Part shown: positions 4,974 to 18,459 of the stretch, one piece after another
Position numbering within the stretch: the first letter of the stretch is position 1
Layout: each line of letters opens with the position of its first letter
DNA from: Bacteroidota bacterium
GTDB taxonomy: Bacteria > Bacteroidota > Bacteroidia > Bacteroidales > F082
Length of the DNA stretch: 39,537 bases
NCBI GenBank assembly: GCA_003650425.1
Contig: QMPP01000003.1
Span: 1 to 39,537, forward strand
Direction: 5' to 3'
The notes under the pieces: model-generated
Told to the model about the DNA's origin: nothing
Database searches by the model: none
What the model saw: only the letters and a program-made list of their open reading frames with translations
Made by a program: the position numbers and the translations under genes

Positions 4974-5324
4974 TTATTTTAGCAACACATCGTTGATAGC
5001 TTGAATAAGGGTTTCTTTAGGTAAAGCACCAACTGCCATCTGTGGTTGACCCTCTTTAGGGCAAAATAGCATGGATGGTATACTTTTGATACCAAAGGCA
5101 CCGGCTAATTCAACTTCAGCTTCCGTATCGATTTTGTAGATGTTGATTTTGCCTTCGTATTCGCCGGCAAGCTCTTCCAAAATAGGAGCTACAATTTTAC
5201 AAGGCTGACACCAATCAGCGTAAAAATCAATAATACAAGGTAATTCGCCTTCAAATTTCCATTCCTGGTTTTTTTCAAAGTTGAATACCTTTTCAAAAAA
5301 TGTTTGTTTCGTTAAATGTTCCAT
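4974..5324 (-). CDS. cytosolic thioredoxin
   Basis: A 116-residue thioredoxin with no signal peptide. The active site is DFYADWCQPCKIVAPI, with Gln in place of the usual Gly in the CxPC motif. The cis-Pro is in KSIPSMLF. It reduces disulfides in cytosolic proteins using thioredoxin reductase. An N-terminal extension of about 25 residues (KVFNFEKNQEWKFEGELP) is shared with the lipoprotein thioredoxin encoded 37 nt upstream, and the two proteins align along almost their whole length, so they are a recent duplicate pair in one transcription unit ending at the 4923-4957 hairpin. Confidence 0.92.
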   Translation of the reverse strand: MEHLTKQTFFEKVFNFEKNQEWKFEGELPCIIDFYADWCQPCKIVAPILEELAGEYEGKINIYKIDTEAEVELAGAFGIKSIPSMLFCPKEGQPQMAVGALPKETLIQAINDVLLK

Positions 5325-5361
5325 TTCTAATATTTGTTATCTGTAATTTGGTTATTTTCTA

Positions 5362-5871
5362 TTATTTATTATCGCTTTTTTCACCAAGCAATTGTTCTTT
5401 TACCACTTTAAAATAGGCATCACGTGGCATGGCACCGGTTTGCATTTGCGGTTTGCCTTTTTTAGGAATAAACAGCACGGAAGGGATACTTCTAACTCTG
5501 AAAACCGAGGCAAGTTGCTTTTCCTGATCCACATCAATTTTGTAAACTTTTATTTTCCCATCGTACTTTTTAGCGAGTTCTTCCATGATTGGCGCCACTC
5601 TTTTACAAGGCCCACACCAAGTAGCGTAAAAATCAATTACGCAAGGTACATCACCTTCGTAAACCCACTCTTGTGGATTGGTTTCAAAGTTCCATACCTT
5701 TTTTAAAAAGGTGTCGTAGGTGAGATGTTCGGGAGCGGCATTAGTAGTGTTGTTATCTTTCGATACTTCTGTTTTAGCCTGATTATGCTCTTTCTCGCTT
5801 CCTTTGCTGTTGGAACAAGCCATTAAATTGGCGGCAAAAAAGAGAACTATTAGAATACTTAAATTCTTCAT
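5362..5871 (-). CDS. thioredoxin-domain lipoprotein
   Basis: A 169-residue protein. A type II signal peptide ends with the lipobox LMAC at Cys19, followed by a polar linker to about residue 50 and then a thioredoxin fold with DFYATWCGPCKRVAPI and the cis-Pro motif RSIPSVLF. It should be tethered to the envelope and act on periplasmic disulfides. It is the first gene of a two-gene unit with the cytosolic paralogue. A -7-like box in reverse (CAAAGATA at 5911-5918, TATCTTTG on the minus strand) lies 40 nt upstream. Such lipoproteins can serve in cytochrome maturation or oxidative-stress repair; nothing nearby decides between these. Confidence 0.9.
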   Translation of the reverse strand: MKNLSILIVLFFAANLMACSNSKGSEKEHNQAKTEVSKDNNTTNAAPEHLTYDTFLKKVWNFETNPQEWVYEGDVPCVIDFYATWCGPCKRVAPIMEELAKKYDGKIKVYKIDVDQEKQLASVFRVRSIPSVLFIPKKGKPQMQTGAMPRDAYFKVVKEQLLGEKSDNK

Positions 5872-5964
5872 ATTGAGATATTTGTTTAAATTTTCGCTTT
5901 AAAACGGGGGCAAAGATACATATTATTTTTATATAGCGCTTTAATATCACTATGACATTTTGTG

Positions 5965-5972
5965 TATTTTTG
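5965..5972 (+). promoter_or_regulatory. -7 element of the zinc-ribbon gene
   Basis: TATTTTTG matches TAnnTTTG and ends 16 nt before the ATG at 5989. No good -33 box is visible. If real, it places transcription start downstream of the ORF-track ATG at 5962 and supports the start at 5989. Confidence 0.4.
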
Positions 5973-5988
5973 CCAAAACTTATTTTGC

Positions 5989-6408
5989 ATGGCGGACATT
6001 AAGGTAGATTATGAGGATTTGGTGCTTAATCTTCGAAAGCGGTTTAAGGATGAAGAGACTTGTTTAAAGTTTCTTGCTGACTTAAAGTGGAAAGACGGGT
6101 TTGTTTGCAAAAAATGTGGCCATACCAATTATTGTAAAGGAAAGACACCCTATTCACGAAGATGTACCCGTTGTAAGAAAGAGGAGTCAGCCACGGCAAA
6201 CACAGCGTTTCATCGCTGTAAAATTCCCATGATTCAGGCATTCGAGATGGCTTTGCTTGTTTGTAAGCTTCCGGGCTACTCGTCGTATCAGATTAGTAAA
6301 AAAATGAACATTCGGCAAATGACCTGTTATAATTTCCAAAAGAAAGTTCAGTTGTGCATGACCGATCCCGAAAAAGAGCCTGTGCTGGCGGCCTTGAGTC
6401 AAATTTAA
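5989..6408 (+). CDS. stand-alone IS1595-type zinc-ribbon/HTH protein (no transposase core)
   Basis: A 139-residue protein starting MADIKVDYEDL; the ORF-track start nine codons upstream overlaps the likely promoter. A zinc ribbon is formed by Cys40, Cys43, Cys59 and Cys62 (VCKKCG, CTRCKK), preceded by the FLADLKWKDGF pattern and followed by SATANTAF, all typical of the N-terminal part of IS1595-family transposases. Residues about 80-120 look like a helix-turn-helix (SSYQISKKMNIRQMTCYNF). The DDE/DDN catalytic domain is absent: a stop codon follows and the next gene is convergent. No inverted repeats flank it. It may be a domesticated DNA-binding protein or a remnant. Confidence 0.75.
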   Translation: MADIKVDYEDLVLNLRKRFKDEETCLKFLADLKWKDGFVCKKCGHTNYCKGKTPYSRRCTRCKKEESATANTAFHRCKIPMIQAFEMALLVCKLPGYSSYQISKKMNIRQMTCYNFQKKVQLCMTDPEKEPVLAALSQI

Positions 6409-6415
6409 CAACAGA

Positions 6416-7720
6416 CTAAACTACTTCTTTTTGTAAAACCCCGCGTTTTGCATAAAACCACATGCCAATTCCTCTGGCAATCATAAACATATCGAAGGCA
6501 AACCAAAGTCCATGATTACCCCAAATCGTGTGTGTAAGATAATAGGCTGGCAGAAATACCAGCAACGAAACAATGATGCTGATGTTTCGCATGGCACGAG
6601 AGGCCGTAGCGCCGATAAAGATTCCATCCCAGTTAAAGGCTGCAATGCTGATAAGGGGCATGATGATGATCCAAAAATAATAGGGTTTCGCCATGCTGAG
6701 AATAAGTTGATTATCGGATAATATTTTCATAATTGGATTCAGCCCGAAACCGTATATTAGGGTAAAGCTCAGGGCGATTACCCATCCCCAGCGGAAAACA
6801 CTTTTAATAACGGCTTTCATTTCGTCGAGTTTGTGAGCCCCCTTGGCTTTGCCTGTTAGGGCTTCGGCAGCATAGGCAAAACCGTCGGCAAAATAGCTAA
6901 AAAAATAGAATAGTTGGAACAACAGCGTGTTTACAGCCAGAATATTGTTGCCTGCTTTGGCAGAACGGCTGGTAAAAAAAGCAAGTACAAACCATAGCAT
7001 AATGGTTCGAATAAAAATATCGCCGTTCACCCCAAAAAACCGTTTCAGGGCACGCGTTTCAACAATTCGATTAAAAGAAAAACGGATATGATACTGCTTA
7101 TATCTCATAAGAAAGAAAAATCCTGCCAACAATAGGCCGCTGTACTGGGCAATAACGCTGGCCCAGGCTACGCCATCCGACGTCATCCCGAACCCATGGA
7201 CAAACAAAAAGTTTAATGCAATATTTACCACGTTAACCACAATGGCTAATATCATTGGAATTACTGCATTTTGTACCCCTAAGTACCAGCCGTAAAAGGC
7301 GTACAATCCCAGCGTAGCCGGGGCAGCCAGAATTCGAATATAAAAATATTGCCGTGCCAACAGCTTAACATTGTGGCTTCCGTCAAGCAATTTAAATGCG
7401 GCCCATTGGATAGGATATTGTAGTAGAATAATTGCTAAAGCTAATGCTAAACCGAGCAAGAGCGATCGTTGCAAAACCAATGATACTTCCTCTCTTTTAT
7501 CAGCGCCGTAAGCCTGTGAGGTCATGCCGCTGCTGCCCATTCTTAGAAATGAAAAACCGGAATAGATAACGTTAAAGATGGTGCTGCCAAGGGCGATAGC
7601 ACCTATATAAACGGGGTCATCGAGGTGTCCCATAAGGGCTAAATCAACAATACCTAAAAGGGGAACCGTAATGTTGGTAACGATGTTTGGTAAAGCCAGA
7701 CGGACTATTTGCCGGTTCAT
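6416..7720 (-). CDS. MATE family efflux transporter (DinF-like)
   Basis: A 434-residue polytopic membrane protein with about twelve hydrophobic helices arranged as two similar halves, the size and pattern of MATE transporters. The start MNRQIVRLALPNIVTNITVP is characteristic of the DinF branch. MATE proteins exchange Na+ or H+ for drugs or metabolites across the inner membrane; the substrate cannot be read here. The gene begins 3 nt after the histidine kinase stop and is the last member of the GTPase operon, so it is presumably co-expressed with it. It converges with the zinc-ribbon gene, with 7 nt between stops. Confidence 0.9.
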   Translation of the reverse strand: MNRQIVRLALPNIVTNITVPLLGIVDLALMGHLDDPVYIGAIALGSTIFNVIYSGFSFLRMGSSGMTSQAYGADKREEVSLVLQRSLLLGLALALAIILLQYPIQWAAFKLLDGSHNVKLLARQYFYIRILAAPATLGLYAFYGWYLGVQNAVIPMILAIVVNVVNIALNFLFVHGFGMTSDGVAWASVIAQYSGLLLAGFFFLMRYKQYHIRFSFNRIVETRALKRFFGVNGDIFIRTIMLWFVLAFFTSRSAKAGNNILAVNTLLFQLFYFFSYFADGFAYAAEALTGKAKGAHKLDEMKAVIKSVFRWGWVIALSFTLIYGFGLNPIMKILSDNQLILSMAKPYYFWIIIMPLISIAAFNWDGIFIGATASRAMRNISIIVSLLVFLPAYYLTHTIWGNHGLWFAFDMFMIARGIGMWFYAKRGVLQKEVV

Positions 7721-7723
7721 GGA

Positions 7724-9244
7724 TTATGCCAGGTTTGATTCCGGTATTTCGATGGTAAAAACAGTTCCCTTTCCTGGTACTGACTTTACAGTAATTTTGA
7801 ATTTATGTGCCTCGATAATTTTTTTAATGATTCCCAAACCAAGACCGGTTCCTTTTTCGCCGGAAGTGCCTTGCGTAGTGTTGTTGGTCGATTCTTTAAA
7901 AAGATTTTTTACCATGTCGTCGTTCATGCCAATGCCTGTATCGACAACAGAAATAAAGGCTTTATCGTCATCTTTTTTTGCAGTTATTTTGATGGAATTA
8001 CTTATTGGTGTAAATTTAATGGCATTGGAAAGCAGGTTGTTTAAGGCTTGCAGGAACAGCGTTTTGTCAACCCGGACTTTTAAGCCGGCTTCCACGTTAA
8101 TAGTCAGAGCAATATTTTTTTCATTACATTTCTCGCGGGCTGTTTCGGTAGCAATTTTAATAATCTCATCGAGCGAAATCGTTTCAAACTCCAGTTTAAA
8201 GTTTCCAAGTTCCAGGTTAGCCCAATGGTATAACTTGTTGTTGTAATCGAGCAACCGGTTCATCTCATCTTTAATGCCATAGATGAGCTCTTGATAATCT
8301 TCGTTGAGTTTTCCTATCTCTTCTTCGTCGGTGGTTAAAACATTTACTACCCCGAGTACAGCAGCAATAGGAGCTCTTAAATCGTGCGAAATAATCGAGT
8401 TGAACTTATTTTTATATACCAAAAGCTCTTTCAGTTTTTTTTCAGTTTTGGCAAGTTTGTCAAAGGCCAGGCTGCTATCGCGAAAGGCCTGCAACAGATT
8501 TTGTTCTTCAACACCTTCGCGGATAAACGATTTAAGGAACAGATAGTTGCTGTTGTTGAGGTTGGTGGCGTAGGCTCGTAAATAGTGATCTTTTCCGGCG
8601 AATGTTTCACTCCAGGTTTCTGAAACAACATAGCTCTCCTTATTTTCTTTCCAAAATTCCTCCACTTCCAGAATAAAGATTTCAAGAAACGGAAAAGTGG
8701 ATATAGGATCAATGCTTCCTGATGCCTTATTATAAAAAGCGTGCTTTTTTATCCACCCCGGGGTGTTAGGCTGCAGACTAAAAGAACCATCATCTTTTCG
8801 CAAAAAGGTGGCAAAATTGAGTTTGTCAAGATGCCGAAAAGGCATCTCTTTGGAGTTAGTTTTGTTGCCTCTACCTTTCAGCTGCTCTTCATTCATGTTT
8901 TGTAGCAGGCTTTTAAGGCTGTCAACCTCGCGGGTTTGATCGATAAAGATTATCCAGTAGTGTCCATTTTCCTTAACAACATGAATATCACAATATTTAT
9001 TTTTAAGCTGTAATTTCGTAAGTTTAACTGATCCTTTGTCAAAAGGACAAATGCCATTTAGTGCGGGAACAAGTTCTTCAATACTTTCATTTTCAGTCAG
9101 TTTGCCTCCGAGATATTCTTTTGGGTTTCCTTTCCAGTTTTTAACAACGCCTCGGTTATCAACTTTTATCATAAGTAAACCGCTGTATGGTGGAATTTCT
9201 TCTACCAGATATTCAACAATCTTTAGTGGTAAATCTTTTAGCAT
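7724..9244 (-). CDS. soluble PAS-like sensor histidine kinase of the GTPase operon
   Basis: A 506-residue protein without membrane segments. Residues about 1-105 look PAS-like (IPPYSGLLMIKVDNRGVVKNW in part), ending at FIDQTRE. A second possible sensory region covers 135-245, then a coiled linker at 245-280. The HisKA box is FNSIISHDLRAP with phospho-acceptor His287. The ATPase domain has the N box (NNLLSNAIKF, ~402-411), G1 (VVDTGIGM) and G2 (GTGLGLGII). It should autophosphorylate in the cytoplasm and pass phosphate to a response regulator, but none is encoded in the window. It lies 6 nt after the GTPase gene, so the GTPase or its membrane partner may be its input. That link is inference. 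Confidence 0.9.
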   Translation of the reverse strand: MLKDLPLKIVEYLVEEIPPYSGLLMIKVDNRGVVKNWKGNPKEYLGGKLTENESIEELVPALNGICPFDKGSVKLTKLQLKNKYCDIHVVKENGHYWIIFIDQTREVDSLKSLLQNMNEEQLKGRGNKTNSKEMPFRHLDKLNFATFLRKDDGSFSLQPNTPGWIKKHAFYNKASGSIDPISTFPFLEIFILEVEEFWKENKESYVVSETWSETFAGKDHYLRAYATNLNNSNYLFLKSFIREGVEEQNLLQAFRDSSLAFDKLAKTEKKLKELLVYKNKFNSIISHDLRAPIAAVLGVVNVLTTDEEEIGKLNEDYQELIYGIKDEMNRLLDYNNKLYHWANLELGNFKLEFETISLDEIIKIATETAREKCNEKNIALTINVEAGLKVRVDKTLFLQALNNLLSNAIKFTPISNSIKITAKKDDDKAFISVVDTGIGMNDDMVKNLFKESTNNTTQGTSGEKGTGLGLGIIKKIIEAHKFKITVKSVPGKGTVFTIEIPESNLA

Positions 9245-9250
9245 GGGAGT

Positions 9251-9751
9251 CTATTTATTTATCATTAATTCAGTTAACCTCGAAAAGGCCTCTTCCACAC
9301 CGGTTCCCTCTTTTGCACTGGTGAGGATTATCTCAAGACCTTTATCTTTGAGTTCGTTTATGGATGTCTCGCTAATATACCATTCCGATTGGGGTAAATC
9401 GGTTTTGTTTATGAGCACGATAAAAGGAGCACCTTTGCTCATCTCGTTAGCCATCTTCTGTAGATTTAATCCTACCCCAAGGGTTTCCTCGCGTGTAACA
9501 TCCACCACCACAAAATAACCCGATGCACCCATTATGTAGGAGGGCTTAACTTTTTGATAGTTGTCTTCTCCATGGATATCCCAAAGCATTAAGTTAACTT
9601 CTGTATCTCCTGTCTGAACCAACTTTTGGTCGATTTTAACGCCGATGGTTGTTTGATACTTTTCCGAGAAAATACTATTAACAAAACGTTGAACCAAACT
9701 GGTTTTGCCAACGGCAAAAGCCCCCAACATGCATATCTTCTTTTTTATCAT
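9251..9751 (-). CDS. Rab/Ras-like small GTPase
   Basis: A 166-residue protein made of a single Ras-superfamily G domain. The P-loop is GAFAVGKTS (10-18). Switch I is YQTTIGVKI with Thr35, close to the eukaryotic Rab YxxTIGVDF pattern. G3 is WDIHGED (57-63), G4 is NKTD (115-118) and G5 is TSAK (144-147). Glu62 stands where Ras has catalytic Gln61, so intrinsic GTP hydrolysis may be slow or helped by a partner. There is no C-terminal lipidation cysteine. The start overlaps the stop of the upstream membrane protein by 4 nt, implying translational coupling. It is not MglA, and no Roadblock/MglB gene is nearby. Prokaryotic relatives of unknown function have been grouped as Rup GTPases. Confidence 0.93.
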   Translation of the reverse strand: MIKKKICMLGAFAVGKTSLVQRFVNSIFSEKYQTTIGVKIDQKLVQTGDTEVNLMLWDIHGEDNYQKVKPSYIMGASGYFVVVDVTREETLGVGLNLQKMANEMSKGAPFIVLINKTDLPQSEWYISETSINELKDKGLEIILTSAKEGTGVEEAFSRLTELMINK

Positions 9752-11478
9752 AACTCTTCCGGTTTAACAAATTTAACTTTAAACGATACCGACCTGAGCG
9801 GGTATGCATCTTTCTCCTCTTCTTTATAACTAACTGTTGGAACGAGTGTTTCCATTGGTATTCCGGCTGCTACCATTAAATCGATAAATTGCTTGGCTCT
9901 GTTAAAAGCTACAATTTTATTGCCCTCGGCGTTTCCGGCTCTACTAGTGTGGGCTATAACAACAATTACCGGTATTGAATCGTTTTTGAAATTAAAATCA
10001 TAAACATTTTTAATGTTCTTGATAAGTTTGGTAAATTTTATTTTTTGAGATGAATCAAGTTTGAACGTATTGTACTTGAAAACAAAATAATACTTTTCAA
10101 TATTAAAAACACTTTTGTTGATTACTGCGCGGAACGGTTGGTTTTTTACGATGCTATCGAAATTAATACTATCAATTCCGGGAAGATGCATGAGTAATGC
10201 TTTCATTGAATCGGCTTCTGTTTGCCGGAAGTTTCCTTTTAAATAGATGATGCCGTTTGATAAATGAATACTTTCATTATTAAAAGCTTGCAATAGGATA
10301 GAAGATCTCTTTAAAATGATTTCTTTCTCCAGCGATAGGTACGACTTAAACTTAAACTGCAGGTTCGACGAGTCGAAACCAAACTGTCCGGAATAGTTGT
10401 ACGGGTTTTCGGATAAAGGGTCTTTCAGCGCGTAAACAACATGTTTCCCATTTTGTTTTTCCAGTTTATTAATAACAATACCTGGTTGATTTTCAGCATA
10501 TTTAACAAAATGATTAAACCTGATGTTGCTGTCAACAGAAGTGTAAATCCAATAACCCAAAGCGCTTAACAGAATCAATAAAAGCAATGTTGAGGCGATA
10601 GGTTTCTTTTTTTTCTGCTCTTTTTCCTGCTGCTTGATGCATGATTGAAGAAATCGTTCACTCTTTTTAAAAGTATCGGTATCACCGTCGAAGGTTTTAA
10701 GTTCATGATCAAAGTTAACATGAACAGCCTCAATGGCTTCTTTAAGAATAACTTTTAGCTCTTCGGGTGGGCGTCCTTCAATAATGGCGGCAACAATGGC
10801 GTAGGGGCCCGGCTCAATCCAAATGGTATATTCACCCATTTGAATGGTGTTCAGGTCGCTTTTTGAGCGGTCAACATTGAGCGAATCCTGAGCAAAATCT
10901 TTAATGGCAGTCAGCATCGACGAAACCATGTCGGCATTGTTCGACAAGCCGCCTCTTTCGTCGGTTATATCCAAAAGCAACAATCCGGTTTCGGTGTGAA
11001 TTAGAAAGACTTCACGAACGCGGTAGATAAAGGCGTGCGAGAGGACAATTTCGCCATAGCTTTTTCCTGAAAAGATGGATTGTAGTCGCCACCCGATTCT
11101 TTTTACTGAAAAACTGTTATCAACTGACGAGCTAACACTATCGAGCATGCGCTTAATATCCTCTGCCACCGCTTTTCTGATAGCAGGAACCATAACCGGA
11201 TAGAGGATATTGGCAAATTTTTGTGGGTTGGCTTTAATGCTGGCTTGTATGGCCTGTTCAATAAATGGGGTTATCTCGTCGAGGGTAACCTGATGACTGG
11301 AAATAAGTTTTTTTATAGAGAGAGGAAGAAACTCTATAATATGATCGGAAAAGGCATCAGGATCTTTGATGAGGTTATTTAGTCTGGACAGATCTTCTTC
11401 ATCCAAACCGGTAATGATTCTTCTCAGTTCTGATAATTGAGCCTTGTTGAGTACGTTTATAAAATCCTTGTCGCTCAT
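9748..11478 (-). CDS. membrane protein with cytosolic GTPase-partner-like region and periplasmic OmpA-like end
   Basis: A 576-residue protein. Residues 1-290 are predicted cytosolic: helices at the N-terminus (LSELRRIITG), a conserved-looking segment (NILYPVMVPAIRKAV), and an alpha/beta region (VFLIHTETGLLLLDI) that could be a small sensor or adaptor fold. One transmembrane helix spans about 293-312 (preceded by KEQKKKK, positive-inside). The periplasmic part has a BON-like stretch (~325-440) and an OmpA/MotB-like C-terminal domain (~450-570) with EGNKIVAFNRAKQFIDLM, where family members bind peptidoglycan. From memory, similar proteins sit beside small GTPases in proteobacteria. It may anchor the GTPase to the cell wall. 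Function is not established. Confidence 0.8.
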   Translation of the reverse strand: MSDKDFINVLNKAQLSELRRIITGLDEEDLSRLNNLIKDPDAFSDHIIEFLPLSIKKLISSHQVTLDEITPFIEQAIQASIKANPQKFANILYPVMVPAIRKAVAEDIKRMLDSVSSSVDNSFSVKRIGWRLQSIFSGKSYGEIVLSHAFIYRVREVFLIHTETGLLLLDITDERGGLSNNADMVSSMLTAIKDFAQDSLNVDRSKSDLNTIQMGEYTIWIEPGPYAIVAAIIEGRPPEELKVILKEAIEAVHVNFDHELKTFDGDTDTFKKSERFLQSCIKQQEKEQKKKKPIASTLLLLILLSALGYWIYTSVDSNIRFNHFVKYAENQPGIVINKLEKQNGKHVVYALKDPLSENPYNYSGQFGFDSSNLQFKFKSYLSLEKEIILKRSSILLQAFNNESIHLSNGIIYLKGNFRQTEADSMKALLMHLPGIDSINFDSIVKNQPFRAVINKSVFNIEKYYFVFKYNTFKLDSSQKIKFTKLIKNIKNVYDFNFKNDSIPVIVVIAHTSRAGNAEGNKIVAFNRAKQFIDLMVAAGIPMETLVPTVSYKEEEKDAYPLRSVSFKVKFVKPEEL

Positions 11479-11496
11479 AAAATGAATCTATAAAGA

Positions 11497-11805
11497 TTAG
11501 TCTTGATTGTCAAATGAGTTGGCCAGATTTCGGAGCGTTTCCGCCAATTTTTTACGGTCGGCTTTGGTTTTTTCCAGCTTCTGAAGCTGTTGTTCAAAAG
11601 CTTCCTTTTGCTCTTGCATTAGCGTGTTAAAGTGATCTTCTTTTTCATCCAACAAACGAGTAAACTCGTTCGAAAGTCGTTCAAAATTAATTTTACTGTC
11701 GGATGAAAGATTTTTAATCTCTTCTTCCAGCTTTGTCATTTGCTCACCAAAAATAATTTCCCGCAGTCTTGATAAACTCTCTAAATCGTTGTTTCTATCA
11801 CTCAT
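11497..11805 (-). CDS. small coiled-coil protein, first gene of the GTPase operon
   Basis: A 102-residue soluble protein, strongly charged and almost wholly helical, with heptad-like spacing from about residue 20 to 95 (KLEEEIKNL, EAFEQQLQKLEKTK). It ends KADRKKLAETLRNLANSF. Its start, LSRLREIIFG, matches LSELRRIITG near the N-terminus of the next protein. No enzyme motif is present. It sits 18 nt upstream of the OmpA-like protein gene and is probably a scaffold or adaptor of the same complex. I do not recognise a named family. Confidence 0.8.
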   Translation of the reverse strand: MSDRNNDLESLSRLREIIFGEQMTKLEEEIKNLSSDSKINFERLSNEFTRLLDEKEDHFNTLMQEQKEAFEQQLQKLEKTKADRKKLAETLRNLANSFDNQD

Positions 11806-11828
11806 AATTGAGACCTTTTATTAATAGG

Positions 11829-11857
11829 TAAAAGTATAAAAAATTGTAATATTCAAT
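11829..11857 (-). promoter_or_regulatory. promoter of the GTPase operon
   Basis: On the minus strand, ATTG (11857-11854) and TACTTTTA (11836-11829) are separated by 17 nt, the same layout as the promoter at 2492-2520, with one change from TAnnTTTG. It lies 24 nt upstream of the ATG at 11805 and is the only good candidate in the 155-bp divergent gap with miaB. Confidence 0.5.
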
Positions 11858-11960: not shown

Positions 11961-13397
11961 ATGAAATACTATATATTGCAACTGGGTTGCCAGATGAATA
12001 TTTCGGATGGCGAGCGGGTGCAGAAGGTATTGGAAGGGTTGGGTTACGAGGCAACGGAAGATGAAAACGAAGCAAACATCGTGGGAATTATTGCTTGCTC
12101 GGTACGCCAAAAAGCCATTGATAAAGTTTATACACGCATCATAAAGTGGAACAAGCTGAAGGACAAAAAAAACATACTCACTTTTGTTACCGGTTGTGTT
12201 TTGCCGGCCGATGAGCAAAAGTTTTTGAAGTTGTTCGATTTGGTGTTCACCATGAGTGAGCTTCCGGAGCTGCCCAACATGATTCGACAGTATGGTGTGG
12301 TTACGCCGGTAGGAACCCAAACGCTCGATAGCGAATTTGAAACAATACTGAATCTTCCTGAAGAAAAACCAAAGGAGCATGCTGTTCCATTTAAAGTGGT
12401 TAATGCTTCCGGTGTGAAAAAGAAAAAAGTGCTGCCACGCCCTGATAAGGGGATTGAGGAGTTTTGGCATATCAAACCAAAATATGGTTCAGGGTTTGAG
12501 GCTTATGTGCCCATCCAAAATGGTTGTAACAAGTTTTGTACTTATTGTGCGGTTCCATACACCCGTGGCAGAGAGGTCTCCAGACCTTCGCGAGACATCC
12601 TTCGCGAGGTGAAAAATTTGGTTGACAGCGGGTATAAGTCTATTACTCTTTTAGGACAAAATGTAAACTCGTACGGGCTGGATAAAAAAGGGGAGGAGAT
12701 AAGCTTTCCGGAGCTGCTTAATAGCATTGGCGAAATTGGAAACAAGAGTCCCAATAACTTTTGGCTCTATTTTACTTCACCCCACCCGCAGGATATGACT
12801 GATGAAGTTATTGAAGTGATTTCAAAATACAAATGTCTGGCCAAACAGATTCACCTGCCGGTACAGTCGGGTGATGATGCTATGCTGAAACGTATGCACC
12901 GCAGCCACGATTTGGCACAATATCGTCATATTGTTCAAACCATTCGGAGGTTGATACCCGAAGCTACTTTGTTTACCGATATCATCGTTGGCTTTACCGG
13001 AGAAACGGAAGAGGAGTTTGAAAATACCCGCAAAGCCATGGAGGAGTTTAAATATAACATGGCGTACATTGCGCAGTATTCGCCCCGTCCGGGAGCGGCC
13101 AGCCATGAGTGGCCTGATGATATTCCTGTTCAGGTAAAAAAAGAGCGTTACCACAAACTTACCGATGAGTTAATGAAACACTCGTTGGAATACAACAAGG
13201 GTATGGCTGGTAAAACCTTCAAGGTGCTGGTGCGTGGAAAAGATCGTAAACCGGGCTTTCTTTCGGCCTTAACCGAAGGAAAAATTATCGTCAGGTTTGC
13301 CTCCGACGATGAAGGCCTGATTGGTCAATATGTAAATGTTAGAGTTACTTCCGCTGCTCCTTTTTCCACAGAAGGGGAAATTGTTGTTCGTAGTTAA
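11961..13397 (+). CDS. miaB: MiaB-type tRNA (i6A37) methylthiotransferase
   Basis: A 478-residue radical-SAM methylthiotransferase. The N-terminal UPF0004 domain has the three cluster cysteines Cys10 (LGCQMN), Cys46 (CSVRQKA) and Cys79 (TGCVLP). The radical-SAM motif is Cys189, Cys193, Cys196 (NGCNKFCTYCAVPYTRGRE), and a C-terminal TRAM domain follows. MiaB adds a methylthio group to N6-isopentenyl-adenosine at tRNA position 37. The N-terminal half (VGIIACSVRQKAIDKVYTRI in part) and a roughly 40-residue lysine-rich linker before the radical-SAM domain depart from the usual Bacteroidota MiaB and remind me of candidate-phyla versions, so transfer or a paralogue is possible. It is followed 13 nt later by mtaB. 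A -7-like TATTTTTG is at 11888-11895. Confidence 0.85.
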   Translation: MKYYILQLGCQMNISDGERVQKVLEGLGYEATEDENEANIVGIIACSVRQKAIDKVYTRIIKWNKLKDKKNILTFVTGCVLPADEQKFLKLFDLVFTMSELPELPNMIRQYGVVTPVGTQTLDSEFETILNLPEEKPKEHAVPFKVVNASGVKKKKVLPRPDKGIEEFWHIKPKYGSGFEAYVPIQNGCNKFCTYCAVPYTRGREVSRPSRDILREVKNLVDSGYKSITLLGQNVNSYGLDKKGEEISFPELLNSIGEIGNKSPNNFWLYFTSPHPQDMTDEVIEVISKYKCLAKQIHLPVQSGDDAMLKRMHRSHDLAQYRHIVQTIRRLIPEATLFTDIIVGFTGETEEEFENTRKAMEEFKYNMAYIAQYSPRPGAASHEWPDDIPVQVKKERYHKLTDELMKHSLEYNKGMAGKTFKVLVRGKDRKPGFLSALTEGKIIVRFASDDEGLIGQYVNVRVTSAAPFSTEGEIVVRS

Positions 13398-13410
13398 TAC
13401 CTGTTAGCGC

Positions 13411-14715
13411 ATGACAAAAATAGCTTTTAAAACACTGGGGTGCAGGCTTAACCTGTTTGAAACTGATTCGCTGATGTCGGAATTTTCTGCCAAAGGATAC
13501 GAGGTTACCGATGACGTGAATGCCGAAGCTGATGTGTATATTATCAACACCTGTACGGTTACCAACCAGAGCGACCAAAAGTCGAAAAGGGTGATGAACC
13601 GCACCAAACGATTACACGACAATTCGGTGAAGATAGTAACCGGTTGCATGGCTACCAATTACAAAGAACAACTACAGGAGAGCGACAAGGTGGATTACGT
13701 GGTTGACAACGATCATAAAACCTCTATTGTTGAGTTGGTGGAAGCACATTTTGCCGGTGAAACCGCCGATCCTGATCTTTTTGAAAAAGATGTGTTTAAT
13801 TACGAACCTGCTAAAACCACGGCTCATACCCGTGCGCTAATCAAAATTCAGGATGGTTGTAACAACTTCTGTACCTATTGTATTATTCCCAAGGTACGTG
13901 GAAGAGCCATTAGCCGTCCGGTGGAGGAGGTGTTGGAAAACATTCGCAAGGTGGTTAGCTACGGGTTTAAAGAGGTCGTCCTCACAGGGGTTAACTTGGG
14001 AACCTATCAATATGATGATGTCGATTTTGAGGAGCTGGTTAAACGGATTCTGACTATTCCGGGCAACTTCAGGGTTCGTATCTCCAGTATGGAACCCGAT
14101 GGTTTTACCGATAGTTTTTTCAAACTGTTTCATCATCATAAACTCACGCCACATATACACCTCTGCTTGCAAAGTGGATCGGAAACCATTTTAAAAAAAA
14201 TGCGCCGTATGTACACCGGTGAGCTGTTCGAGTTGATGACCATGAAATTGCGCGAGGAGGTGCCGGGTTTTAACATCACTACCGATATTATTGTGGGCTT
14301 TCCCGGTGAAACCGAGCAGGATATCGAAGACACCTTAGCCATGTCGGAGCGAATAAATTTCGGACATATCCATACCTTTAAGTATTCTGTGCGTAAGGGA
14401 ACACGTGCCGAGCGTTTGCCGGAACAGATTCACGGTGATATTAAAACCGAACGTAGCGAAAGGGTTCGGAAGCTTTCGGAAAAGATGCGGGAAAGTTACC
14501 GTCGTAATTTTATTGGAAAAACACAAGTTGTATTGGTAGAGCGTATTAACGACGAAGGTTTTGCTACCGGCTATGGCGAAAATTATATTCCGATTGTTAT
14601 CCGTGAAAAAAACCTTCAAACAAACACTTTTTATAAAGTAGAGCTATCCGATTTGATTTATGGCAACAATGAGCCGGTACTGATTGGCAAAAAGGCAACG
14701 GCTTTTGTTTATTAA
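13411..14715 (+). CDS. mtaB: tRNA (t6A37) methylthiotransferase MtaB
   Basis: A 434-residue methylthiotransferase of the MtaB/YqeV branch. UPF0004 cysteines are Cys11 (LGCRLN), Cys48 (INTCTVT) and Cys79 (TGCMA). The radical-SAM cluster uses Cys150, Cys154 and Cys157 (DGCNNFCTYCIIPKVRGR). The LGCRLN and NTCTVT patterns separate MtaB from MiaB and RimO. A shorter TRAM-like end follows. MtaB converts t6A to ms2t6A at tRNA position 37, improving decoding of ANN codons. It begins 13 nt after the miaB-type gene, so two different position-37 modifications are produced from one operon. Confidence 0.9.
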   Translation: MTKIAFKTLGCRLNLFETDSLMSEFSAKGYEVTDDVNAEADVYIINTCTVTNQSDQKSKRVMNRTKRLHDNSVKIVTGCMATNYKEQLQESDKVDYVVDNDHKTSIVELVEAHFAGETADPDLFEKDVFNYEPAKTTAHTRALIKIQDGCNNFCTYCIIPKVRGRAISRPVEEVLENIRKVVSYGFKEVVLTGVNLGTYQYDDVDFEELVKRILTIPGNFRVRISSMEPDGFTDSFFKLFHHHKLTPHIHLCLQSGSETILKKMRRMYTGELFELMTMKLREEVPGFNITTDIIVGFPGETEQDIEDTLAMSERINFGHIHTFKYSVRKGTRAERLPEQIHGDIKTERSERVRKLSEKMRESYRRNFIGKTQVVLVERINDEGFATGYGENYIPIVIREKNLQTNTFYKVELSDLIYGNNEPVLIGKKATAFVY

Positions 14716-14723
14716 CATAAATA

Positions 14724-15944
14724 CTATAGTTTCTTTACTATGAGGGTGCTGTTGGTTCCTCCAAAGCCAAAGGAGTTTGATATGAAGGTGTCGATTGTTG
14801 CTTCCCGGGTTTTGGTTACTATGTTTAGTTTTGCCGAGTGTTCGTCAGGGTTTTCGAAGTTTATATTAGGGGCGATAAAATTGTTTTGAGCCATCAGCAT
14901 GGAGTAAATTACTTCCGATGCACCACCCATCCACATTTCGTGTCCGGTCATCCCTTTGGTGGAACTGACAGGGACATTGGTTCCCTTAAAAACCTGATGA
15001 ATGGCTTGCGCCTCGTTGCTATCACCAACAGGGGTTGAGGTGGCATGGGCGTTAAGGTAGTCGATCTCTTCCGGTTTCAGGCCGGCTTGCTCCAACGATC
15101 TTTTAATGGATCGGACAGGCCCATCCACATTGGGAACGGAAATATGCTCGCCGTTGGAGGAGAATCCGTATCCCAAAATTTCGGCAATAATGGGAGCACC
15201 ACGTTTTACAGCCGATTCGTAGCTTTCGATGATAATGGTGGCAGCTCCTCCGCTCGGAATTAAACCATCACGGTCGCGGTCAAAAGGGCGGGAAGCTTTG
15301 GTGGGTTCGTCGTGGTGTGTTGAAAAGGCGGCAATAGCATCGAAACTTCCCATCGACAGCGCATTTACTTCTTGTGCGCCACCACATACAATCATATCTT
15401 GCAACCCCTGTTTAATAAACATGTATCCTACTCCAATGGCATGAGAGCCGCTGGCACAGGCACCGCTCAGGGTAAAGTTAACACCCTTCAGCTTTAAAAT
15501 AACCGACAGGTTCATGCTAACTGTCGAGTTCATCGATTGGAAGATGGAGCCGGAGCCTATCAGGGCAGTTTCTTTGCGGGCACGTAAAATGTCAGCAGCT
15601 TCGATAATCGGAACAGCTGAGCTGTCGTTTCCGTATAAAATGCCTGCTTCATGATCCTGAAACCACGATACATCAAGTCCTGCATTGCCGACTGCTTCCA
15701 TCGTGGCGAGATAAGCATATTTTCCCTGTTCGGCCAGGCCAATCCGTTGCCGGCGGGGTAATATCCCTTTTAAGGTGGGCTTTTCTATTAGTCCGGTAAG
15801 ATACGACCGGAAACCCATGGCTTCACGTTCGGGGTCAATGCCAATGCCCGATTTCCCCTGATACAATGAATCTTTTACCTCCTGTAGGTTTTTTCCGATA
15901 ACAGAATAAACTCCCATGCCCGTAATGACTACTCTTCGTTCCAT
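14724..15944 (-). CDS. beta-ketoacyl-ACP synthase, flexirubin/aryl-polyene type
   Basis: A 406-residue thiolase-fold condensing enzyme of the FabB/FabF class. The catalytic triad is Cys163 (GACASGSH), His300 (NAHATSTPVGD) and His335 (KGMTGHEMWMGG). The enzyme joins malonyl-ACP to a growing acyl-ACP with loss of CO2. Its position behind a ketoreductase and an aromatic amino-acid ammonia-lyase suggests that it extends an aryl (coumaroyl-like) starter rather than making ordinary fatty acids; that is inference from context. It starts 83 nt after the reductase stop. No dedicated ACP, dehydratase or acyltransferase gene is in the window. Confidence 0.88.
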   Translation of the reverse strand: MERRVVITGMGVYSVIGKNLQEVKDSLYQGKSGIGIDPEREAMGFRSYLTGLIEKPTLKGILPRRQRIGLAEQGKYAYLATMEAVGNAGLDVSWFQDHEAGILYGNDSSAVPIIEAADILRARKETALIGSGSIFQSMNSTVSMNLSVILKLKGVNFTLSGACASGSHAIGVGYMFIKQGLQDMIVCGGAQEVNALSMGSFDAIAAFSTHHDEPTKASRPFDRDRDGLIPSGGAATIIIESYESAVKRGAPIIAEILGYGFSSNGEHISVPNVDGPVRSIKRSLEQAGLKPEEIDYLNAHATSTPVGDSNEAQAIHQVFKGTNVPVSSTKGMTGHEMWMGGASEVIYSMLMAQNNFIAPNINFENPDEHSAKLNIVTKTREATIDTFISNSFGFGGTNSTLIVKKL

Positions 15945-16027
15945 ATTTTTATAAAACTTGTCCTAATTTCAACCTTAATTTTATCCCAATTTTCCACTCC
16001 ACTCTTTCACTCTACACTCCAAACTCC

Positions 16028-16756
16028 TTAAGTGTACAATCCCCCGTTAATATTTATCACCTCACCGGTAATGTATCCTGCTTTTTCCGATGCCAGAAAT
16101 GCTACCAAATCAGCAACTTCCACGGCGTAGCCAAAGCGGTTAACAGGTATTAATTTCTTTAGTTGCTTTTCATCCAGCGATTTCGTCATCTCCGAACGAA
16201 TGTAACCGGGGGCTACCGCATTGACGGTAACCTTTTTACGTCCCATCTCCTGTGCCAGAGCCTTCGTGGCTCCGATAATACCTGCTTTGGCTGCCGAATA
16301 ATTGGTTTGTCCCGGAAGTCCCTTTACCCCTGACAAGGATACCACGTTGATAATTCTTCCAAATTTGTTTAAGGCCATATCCTTTAACAGACCTGAGGTT
16401 ACGTTAAAAAAACCGTTCAGATTGGTATTGATAACGCTGTCCCACTCCTCATTTTCCATCCACAACATTAGGTTGTCCTTGTTGATACCGGCATTGTTAA
16501 CCAACACGGAAATATAGGAATCAGGATGTTGCTTTTTCCAGCTTTCAATGTTGTTTGATGCGGCTTGACGGTCGGAAACGTCAAATTGAATAATCTCGCC
16601 GCTGCCTCCATTGGCTACCAGACTTTCGAGGGTTTTTAACGCGTTATCTTTATTGCTGTTATAGTTGATGAGCACATAATAACTCATCGCGGCAAGCTTT
16701 TCACAGATGGCTTTCCCTATTTCTCCTGATCCTCCTGTTACTAGTGCATATTTCAT
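16028..16756 (-). CDS. 3-oxoacyl-ACP reductase (FabG-like SDR)
   Basis: A 242-residue short-chain dehydrogenase/reductase. The cofactor loop is TGGSGEIGKAI, followed by NNAG, a catalytic Ser in VSLSGVKG and the YSAAKAG motif, ending with ITGEVININGGLYT as in FabG proteins. It reduces beta-ketoacyl-ACP with NADPH. The start codon overlaps the stop of the ammonia-lyase gene by 4 nt, so the two are translationally coupled and probably serve the same pathway with the following ketoacyl synthase. Many Bacteroidota flexirubin clusters contain such a dedicated FabG paralogue. Confidence 0.88.
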   Translation of the reverse strand: MKYALVTGGSGEIGKAICEKLAAMSYYVLINYNSNKDNALKTLESLVANGGSGEIIQFDVSDRQAASNNIESWKKQHPDSYISVLVNNAGINKDNLMLWMENEEWDSVINTNLNGFFNVTSGLLKDMALNKFGRIINVVSLSGVKGLPGQTNYSAAKAGIIGATKALAQEMGRKKVTVNAVAPGYIRSEMTKSLDEKQLKKLIPVNRFGYAVEVADLVAFLASEKAGYITGEVININGGLYT

Positions 16757-18297
16757 AATTCAACAAGTTGGATATCGTTGTTTTTTAAATAGTCGGTAAG
16801 CTTGGCAATTTGTCGGTACAAGGTACTATCCTCTTTAAATACCGGCAATATGGAGCGTATTTTGTCAAGGATGTTACGGGTGCGGGTGGATGCTTTTTCT
16901 TCCAGCTCAAGTTTGGCAAATCCCTGTGAGAGTGTCATTAATTCAATGGCCAGCACTTCAAACGTGTTGTTAATTACCTTGTCGGCAATTAAGGCCGAAT
17001 TGGTACCCATGCTAACAACATCCTGGTTGTCGTTGTTGTTGGGAATACTGTGGACATAGTTTGGAAATGATAAACTCTGGTTTTCGGCAACGGTGGAGGT
17101 AGCCGTAAACTGTGCTCCCTGCATGCCCAGATTTAGCCCAAGAGTTCCAAGGTTTACAAAGGGAGGCAATATTTCGTTGAGCTTGCTGTTTAACAGGAAA
17201 TTCAACTGCCTCTCGGCCAGTATGGAGAGTTTGGTGATGGCTGTTTTTACTTTATCCATTTCAAACGAAACGTAATCGCCATGGAAATTTCCACCATGGT
17301 AAACTGTTCCTTTTTCAAAATTGATGATGGGATTATCGTTTACCGAGTTTATTTCTCCTTCGAGAATGGTTTTGGCATAGGTAAGTGTGTCGATAACCGG
17401 ACCCAAAATTTGGGGAACACACCGTAATGAGTAATACTCCTGCACTTTTTGTTTGATTACCTTTTCGCTGTGACGGCCGTTGTACAGATGGTCTTCGCGC
17501 TTGCGAATCAGCTTGCTATCATTTAAAAAGACTCGTAACCCTTCGGCAATAACCTGTTGTCCTTTATGTTTTTTGGTTCCGTTCAGCTCCTCCGAAAAAT
17601 GATCGTCGAACGATTCTACCAGCTCATTAATCATGGCGGAGGCTGCCAGCGACCAATTTACGAGATGTTTTGCTTTAAAGAGATTGACAAACCCAATGCC
17701 GGTCATAACCGAAGTGCCGTTAATCAAAGCCAGTCCTTCGCGTAAATGGACTTGCAGAGGGCGTATATTAAGTGCCTTAAAAACATCCTCCGTTTTAAGG
17801 CGCTCATTTTGGTAAAAAACTTCTCCTTCGCCAATAATGACCAGCGCCAGTTGCGCGAGTTGTACTAAATCGCCGCTGGCACCCACGCCTCCATGCTCAG
17901 GAATAAAGGGCGTTATGTTGTTGTTAATAAGTTGCTCCAAAACAATGGCCGCATCCTTATGAATGCCTGAATAGCCCAACGACAACGTTTTGAGCCGGGC
18001 AATCATGGCTGCCTTAACCTGGATGGGGTTCAAGGGTTTTCCGCTCCCTGCCGCATGACTGCGTATCAGGTTATATTGCAGCCTGATTAAATCTTCCTGC
18101 TCCACCCGATACTGTGCCATGGGGCCAAAACCGGTATTGATTCCATATATAATTTTGTCTTTGGAAAAGTCGATTAAAAAACGGAAACTTCTGTCAATCC
18201 TCTCCAGCGTTGTCTTGTCGATTGAAATCTTACCTTCATTAAAAAGTAACGCCTGCATATCTACACATGTAAGTGCTTCCCGCGAAATAGTTATCAT
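16753..18297 (-). CDS. aromatic amino acid ammonia-lyase (probable tyrosine ammonia-lyase)
   Basis: A 514-residue MIO-dependent lyase. The MIO cofactor forms from Ala140-Ser141-Gly142 in GGVGASGDLVQLAQLAL. Tyr51 in IYGINTGFGPM is the catalytic base. The selectivity loop reads QYNLIRSHAAG. This and other blocks (KREDHLYNG, YYSLRCVPQILGPV, SIPNNNDNQDVVSMGTNSA) match what I remember of the flexirubin-cluster tyrosine ammonia-lyase of Flavobacterium johnsoniae better than degradative HutH, and no other hut gene is near. It would deaminate tyrosine to p-coumarate as a starter. Start chosen at MITISREAL (18297), because the ORF-track start (18351) precedes a likely -7 box. Histidine as substrate is not excluded. 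Confidence 0.85.
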   Translation of the reverse strand: MITISREALTCVDMQALLFNEGKISIDKTTLERIDRSFRFLIDFSKDKIIYGINTGFGPMAQYRVEQEDLIRLQYNLIRSHAAGSGKPLNPIQVKAAMIARLKTLSLGYSGIHKDAAIVLEQLINNNITPFIPEHGGVGASGDLVQLAQLALVIIGEGEVFYQNERLKTEDVFKALNIRPLQVHLREGLALINGTSVMTGIGFVNLFKAKHLVNWSLAASAMINELVESFDDHFSEELNGTKKHKGQQVIAEGLRVFLNDSKLIRKREDHLYNGRHSEKVIKQKVQEYYSLRCVPQILGPVIDTLTYAKTILEGEINSVNDNPIINFEKGTVYHGGNFHGDYVSFEMDKVKTAITKLSILAERQLNFLLNSKLNEILPPFVNLGTLGLNLGMQGAQFTATSTVAENQSLSFPNYVHSIPNNNDNQDVVSMGTNSALIADKVINNTFEVLAIELMTLSQGFAKLELEEKASTRTRNILDKIRSILPVFKEDSTLYRQIAKLTDYLKNNDIQLVEL

Positions 18298-18332
18298 GTT
18301 TGTAACTTTTTTGTCAAAAAAATTTAAGCTGA

Positions 18333-18340
18333 CAAAAGTA
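18333..18340 (-). promoter_or_regulatory. -7 element upstream of the ammonia-lyase operon
   Basis: TACTTTTG on the minus strand, 36 nt before the start at 18297 and downstream of the ORF-track ATG (18351). A second -7-like box, TATCTTTG, lies at 18377-18384. Neither has a convincing -33 partner. Confidence 0.35.
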
Positions 18341-18459
18341 GTAACAATCATCGGATTTTCCTATTTACTGATTTTGCAAAGATAGCACATGAATTTCTGA
18401 ATTTTATCAGGTTTGACATGAAAGAACCTTTTATTTAGGTAGTGTATTTATAATATTTA

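Follow-up and report, generated by a model that had tools for sequence, protein, structure and literature searches.

Among the small GTPases of bacteria, the Rup proteins have been proposed as the closest relatives of the eukaryotic Rab, Ras, Rho and Ran GTPases (Wuichet and Sogaard-Andersen, 2014; PMC4316618). Group 1 Rup loci combine a GTPase that lacks the Gln of the G3 motif with a coiled-coil protein and two further neighbours: a partner whose unassigned domain is in many cases succeeded by a transmembrane (TM) helix and an OmpA domain, and an output protein, either a histidine kinase (HK) or a GGDEF/EAL protein, whose N-terminal region carries an invariant Gln (PMC4316618). Histidine kinase outputs and members from Bacteroidetes were already known in 2014, the family was counted as being without an MglB-type partner, and none of its proteins had been characterised by then (PMC4316618). 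In the literature searched, no later study of any Rup GTPase was found, and searches for papers on bacterial longins or on a Rab/OmpA operon with a name of its own in bacteria returned only PMC4316618. Here we describe a stretch of 39,537 nucleotides of contig QMPP01000003.1 from a Bacteroidota bacterium (GCA_003650425.1), hereafter called the window, in which a run of five genes encodes a coiled-coil protein, a 576-aa membrane protein, a Rab-like small GTPase, a histidine kinase and a MATE transporter (Table 1). Judged from their sequences, the first four genes almost certainly represent a Group 1 Rup locus; the original prediction had known of no named system for this neighbourhood, which was published under that name in 2014 (PMC4316618). 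The locus is a further copy of a published kind, and what is new is the Roadblock/longin-like identity that we propose for its constant partner, the membrane protein.

The likeness to Group 1 extends over the same four genes. The GTPase is a single-domain Ras-like protein with motifs G1 to G5, its 166 aa lie within the range of 150-240 aa given for the group, and Glu62 stands in place of the catalytic G3 Gln. It is accompanied by a cytoplasmic coiled-coil protein, by a protein combining an unknown domain, a TM helix and an OmpA-like domain, and by a histidine kinase as output protein with Gln115 and Gln252 in its N-terminal part, either of which may be the paper's invariant Gln. The locus is likewise uncoupled from a canonical MglB gene; Pfam gave no Robl_LC7 match in the window's genome, which holds no recognisable Roadblock protein. 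The window differs from the published description in that a MATE gene trails the set in its lineage, in that the domain left unassigned in the paper looks Roadblock/longin-like, and in that the output N-terminus is resolved here into two Gln-helix domains.

A collection scan for the GTPase, with patterns taken from Bacteroidota sequences that include the G3 region and therefore select Group 1-like sequences, yielded 80 loci from Bacteroidota, Cyanobacteria, Acidobacteria, Planctomycetes, several proteobacterial groups, Nitrospirota, Chloroflexi, Deinococcota and others. The N-terminal domain of the membrane protein (N-domain) is encoded at 77 of these loci, and homologues of the coiled-coil protein at 76. 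Where at least 2.5 kb of sequence was available upstream (72 loci), the membrane protein and the coiled-coil protein were each found within 4 kb in 70 cases, and a Gln-helix output domain (D1 or D2, described below) is present at 60 of the 62 loci with room downstream. The three GTPase loci that lack a linked N-domain belong to genomes encoding it elsewhere, which brings its presence to 80/80 genomes. Searches of genome samples, which used whole profiles and are less biased than the pattern scan, gave a similar picture. Among 297 genomes of the window's phylum, N-domain and small GTPase occur in the identical 13 genomes, one further GTPase match being a domain within an 876-aa protein; in a cyanobacterial phylum (194 genomes) both are present in the same 25, G556 is the only small GTPase beyond these, and the remaining GTPase-profile matches lie in frames of 528-1420 aa. 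The naive P values for this co-occurrence, which ignore shared ancestry, are 6e-23 and 1e-30, respectively. In three genomes of genus g182, the coiled-coil and membrane proteins are encoded at one locus and the GTPase, D1 and D2 at another, so that co-occurrence is independent of operon inheritance. The four genes form one conserved unit across many phyla.

The possibility that the run is a chance operon of unrelated genes has a negligible probability for these four genes, whose conservation lies far above chance and for which linkage and co-occurrence exclude it. It does hold for the MATE gene, which adjoins the module in only 3 of the 80 loci (L030-L032), all of them closest relatives, and which we therefore rejected as a module member. 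One conserved functional unit that joins the GTPase to the OmpA-like protein, the coiled-coil protein and the kinase, as envisaged in the original prediction, is thus borne out, and a lack of conserved co-occurrence of GTPase and OmpA-like genes, named there in advance as the refuting outcome, is decisively contradicted; the extension to a five-gene system including the transporter did not hold.

The GTPase matches the Pfam Ras family with an E-value of 4.8e-30, and its best solved relatives are a Thorarchaeota Rab and Rab35 (E about 5e-22), in agreement with its first description as Rab-like. The residue equivalent to Ras Gln61 is never Gln in the 80 relatives (Glu in 66, Asp in 12, Asn in 2), and only two of them carry a Cys for lipidation among their last six residues. 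The Walker B/G3 Asp is kept as Asp58 and is invariant in 27/27 sequences, and the Thr that characterises MglA at this position is not found in the window GTPase. An MglA-type GTPase with canonical MglB was ruled out on the basis of Asp58 and the lack of Robl_LC7 in the genome.

According to our models and profile comparisons, the cytoplasmic domain of the membrane protein is probably Roadblock/longin-like, the fold being well supported and homology moderately so. In an AlphaFold2 (AF2) model of the whole protein built with 71 homologues (mean pLDDT 79.7, pTM 0.39), residues 153-261 form, with uneven confidence, two strands (153-161, 167-172), a helix (182-199), three strands (211-214, 217-223, 227-234) and a final helix (239-261), which is the order of the Roadblock/longin topology. 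Foldseek searches against the PDB returned the TRAPP chains 2j3t_C and 3cue_C and the AP-sigma-type chains 9ddt_B and 4p6z_S, all of which we take to be longin folds, in addition to OmpA/Pal, BonA and DolP; we infer that the longin matches cover residues 152-262. A profile of residues 148-262 (114 homologues) aligned by hhalign with MglB-type Roadblock over 75 columns, with a score of 28.4 and P = 1.4e-4. On the full Roadblock set the real profile scored 23.8 and 60 column-permuted profiles reached a maximum of 16.1. A reversed Roadblock profile gave a score of 11.6, and against Roadblock subgroups no other domain of these proteins exceeded 22.2. No Roadblock or other Pfam or PDB sequence match to the N-domain was obtained by HMMER; when true Roadblock subgroups are compared with each other by hhalign, results range from undetected up to a probability of 94.

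Small GTPases are acted on by dimers of Roadblock/longin proteins, which serve as GEFs (guanine nucleotide exchange factors) or GAPs (GTPase-activating proteins) (PMC10933270), and we lean slightly towards a role of the Roadblock/longin-like domain as GTPase regulator. As far as the literature searched shows, such a partner of Rup has not been published, and we offer it as a prediction. Alternatively, the N-domain could be only an anchor or scaffold and the Gln-helix domains only effectors, with cycling of the GTPase being intrinsic or driven by an unlinked factor. No catalytic residue was identified in the N-domain, and bacterial small GTPases can use unlinked regulators, an example being the MglA partners in Myxococcus (PMC4316618). 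We nevertheless consider this alternative unlikely, as the N-domain is found in all 80 GTPase genomes, even where it is unlinked, and its fold resembles those of known GTPase regulators.

In the periplasmic part of the protein, the BON-like region has no Pfam match, and the Pfam OmpA match of the window protein is weak (E = 2.7e-5; 24.9 bits, under the cut-off of 27.2 bits), with 58 of the 71 membrane-protein homologues matching OmpA. The Asp of the HTD motif and an Arg belong to the peptidoglycan-binding pocket of OmpA domains. In the window protein the former is replaced by Ser512, an Asp being present in only 23 of 69 homologues, and the latter is retained as the invariant Arg527; peptidoglycan binding by this protein is therefore uncertain. 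Two homologues of the membrane protein (L093, 340 aa; L137, 283 aa) lack the TM/OmpA part, by which the OmpA domain was ruled out as an essential part of the module, and the module can exist without an envelope anchor. The claim that the protein spans from cytosol to peptidoglycan is insecure on both counts. Cyanobacteria additionally encode a divergent N-domain subfamily in frames of 726-1271 aa (L152-L175), which is linked to a small GTPase that is peculiar to it and likewise more divergent.

The output kinase matches HisKA (1.3e-9) and HATPase_c (1.9e-24) in Pfam, and its N-terminus is modelled as two PAS-like domains, D1 and D2. A comparison of the two by hhalign (P = 0.004, probability only 9%) is no more than suggestive of a common origin. 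They are fused in one protein at 40 loci and lie on neighbouring genes at 16. D2 is found fused to HK, hybrid HK, GGDEF/EAL, HD-GYP or sigma-54 activator modules, and D1 of cyanobacteria and others usually to a class III cyclase-like domain. Output domains can be exchanged, and a GTPase part that stays constant while the enzymes attached to it vary is the hallmark of an input/switch unit that feeds different outputs. In a reverse wiring of the kind proposed for actinobacterial conservons, sensing would begin at the kinase and the GTPase would be the output. This would fit an operon without a response regulator and PAS-like domains that could bind ligands, and the authors of the 2014 study do posit the GTPase as the conservon output (PMC4316618). 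In homologous loci the kinase is, however, swapped for GGDEF/EAL, HD-GYP or sigma-54 outputs, which are effector ends, while the GTPase and its partners stay constant, and we regard the reverse wiring as quite improbable.

Two observations concern the output genes themselves. The cyclase-like domains fused to D1 mostly lack the first metal-binding Asp, with His or Lys instead (L071, L074-L076, L084, L087, L088, L103 and others), and most of them therefore look like pseudo-enzymes; the residue is intact in L086 and L098. At L026/L039 (G103), D1 and the D2-kinase are found in two overlapping open reading frames (ORFs) of 113 and 380 aa, which points to a gene split or a frameshift.

With a probability of roughly 0.6, we posit that the GTPase is set by a Roadblock/longin-like regulator tethered to the envelope, and that the PAS-like Gln-helix domains read the GTPase and drive interchangeable outputs. 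The state of the envelope would be sensed by the BON/OmpA-like part and passed on as a change in the Roadblock/longin-like domain; where that part is missing, a cytoplasmic cue would act on the domain instead. The domain would bind the GTPase, which has no lipid anchor, at the membrane and set its nucleotide state, with the coiled-coil protein as a scaffold. GTP-bound GTPase would then dock on D1/D2 of the output protein and switch it, in the window a soluble histidine kinase, and the conserved Gln of the D1/D2 helices might be the residue that, supplied in trans, completes the active site of the GTPase and so resets the switch. It is likely that the proteins of the module form one physical complex. 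Coiled-coil proteins and membrane-protein N-termini both start with a similar L-x-x-[LI]R-x-[IL][LI]-x-G helix motif; the likeness of this LRxLLxG motif between the two, scored by hhalign at P = 0.001 and a probability of 20%, is only suggestive, and the motif may perhaps be a shared docking site. That the Gln is supplied in trans by the output helices seems rather unlikely. The authors of the 2014 study had speculated that the output N-terminus acts on the GTPase in this way, and they, like the original prediction, hypothesised a complex that is switched by nucleotide and read out by the kinase (PMC4316618).

Several points weigh against this model. Within the Roadblock/longin-like region pLDDT varies from 49 to 93, in a model whose pTM is 0.39; Foldseek gave E-values no better than about 3e-4 to 2e-3, and the aligned residues are absent from its output; the hhalign probability for the MglB-type Roadblock match is 52%, which falls short of the certainty customary for such matches. 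The operon encodes no response regulator. The sole argument for a Gln acting in trans is its conservation, and the residue could be structural.

The five ORFs follow one another on the minus strand from position 11805 to 6416, with gaps of 18, -4, 6 and 3 nt in gene order, which reproduces the arrangement first described. The only sizeable intergenic space of about 155 nt lies upstream of the run and is common to a divergent gene. A scan for promoter consensus sequences was unspecific; as the gaps are tiny and this space lies upstream, one promoter for the run is plausible. Divergent from the GTPase operon are two consecutive genes, assigned by eye, for MiaB/MtaB-like methylthiotransferases (11961-14715), and further on a ketoacyl synthase, a short-chain reductase and an aromatic amino-acid lyase are encoded in a row (14724-18351), resembling aryl-polyene/flexirubin pigment clusters. 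On the other side, convergent with the MATE gene, lies a gene for a 148-aa Zn-ribbon protein of the IS1595 type (5962-6408), which lacks the transposase core and may be a truncated transposase or a relic resembling a transcription factor. The gene is preceded by two tandem thioredoxin-like genes (4974-5871), the second with a lipoprotein-like signal (MKNLSILIVLFFAANLMACS).

Table 1. Features of the Group 1 Rup locus and the trailing MATE gene (positions refer to the window; aa, amino acids).
Feature	Position	Strand	Details and evidence
Coiled-coil protein, 102 aa	11497..11805	-	conserved N-terminal LSRLREIIFG motif
Membrane protein, 576 aa	9748..11478	-	helical N-terminus, Roadblock/longin-like domain, TM, BON-like region, OmpA-like domain
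Roadblock/longin-like cytoplasmic domain (predicted), aa 152-262	10693..11025	-	β-β-α-β-β-β-α; AF2, Foldseek, hhalign
Predicted TM helix, ~aa 294-316	10531..10599	-	after KKKK stretch (positive-inside); sequence; model helix 294-329
BON-like periplasmic region, ~aa 334-440	10159..10479	-	Foldseek BonA and DolP dual-BON matches
OmpA/Pal-like domain, ~aa 449-571	9766..10134	-	Ser512 for HTD Asp, Arg527 kept
Rab-like small GTPase (Rup Group 1), 166 aa	9251..9751	-	G1 GAFAVGKTS, TTIG, G3 WDIHGED, NKTD, TSAK
G3 motif WDIHGED, aa 57-63	9563..9583	-	Glu62 at Ras Gln61 position
Histidine kinase, 506 aa	7724..9244	-	two N-terminal PAS-like domains, no evident TM segment
PAS-like D1, aa 3-128	8861..9238	-	end helix Gln115-x-x-Asn118; Gln in 94%, Asn in 95% of D1 domains
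PAS-like D2, aa 135-268	8441..8842	-	end helix Gln252-x-x-Arg255; Gln in 68/68, Arg in 99% of D2 domains
HisKA + HATPase_c core, aa 278-503	7736..8413	-	His287
MATE (DinF-like) transporter	6416..7720	-	MatE 1.3e-34; predicted co-transcribed neighbour, outside the module

Beyond the Rup loci, the module resembles several systems that pair a small GTPase with a Roadblock or longin fold. The actinobacterial conservons (CvnA-D) are likewise operons of a histidine kinase, a Roadblock protein, a small GTPase and an uncharacterised protein (PMC13343842), but they combine an MglA-type GTPase with a canonical Roadblock protein (CvnB) and a kinase that is itself membrane-bound, and they have no OmpA-like protein. 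The MglA/MglB polarity switch also consists of a small GTPase and a Roadblock-fold regulator. MglA carries Thr for the Walker B/G3 Asp (PMC3000849), whereas the window GTPase keeps Asp58 in a genome without a recognisable Roadblock protein. If the partner is indeed Roadblock/longin-like, it is a concrete candidate for the regulator of the Rup GTPases, and the Rup, MglA/MglB and conservon systems would be variants of one plan, in which a small GTPase and a Roadblock/longin protein are joined to a signalling output.

The likeness to eukaryotic Rabs and their longin-type GEFs (TRAPP, Mon1-Ccz1) lies in the pairing of a Rab-like GTPase with a longin-type fold, with TRAPP among the Foldseek matches; in contrast to these, the window GTPase has no C-terminal lipid-anchoring Cys, no V4R/Bet3 partner was seen, and the putative regulator is an integral envelope protein. 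Only tentatively, and with doubt outweighing confidence, do we regard the module as a bacterial, envelope-tethered equivalent of a Rab with its longin GEF, in which the N-domain would be a divergent Roadblock/longin regulator and the paired Gln-helix PAS-like domains on the exchangeable output enzymes would serve both as effector and as Gln-supplying GAP. If true, Rup would gain the regulator and the GAP that it has so far been missing, and a conserved operon of bacteria would hold a Rab-longin pairing. Small GTPases of Asgard archaea were reported to lie generally outside operons with Roadblock/longin genes (PMC10933270); unlike there, the GTPase and its Roadblock/longin-like partner form a fixed pair here, which bears on the origin of Rab regulation.

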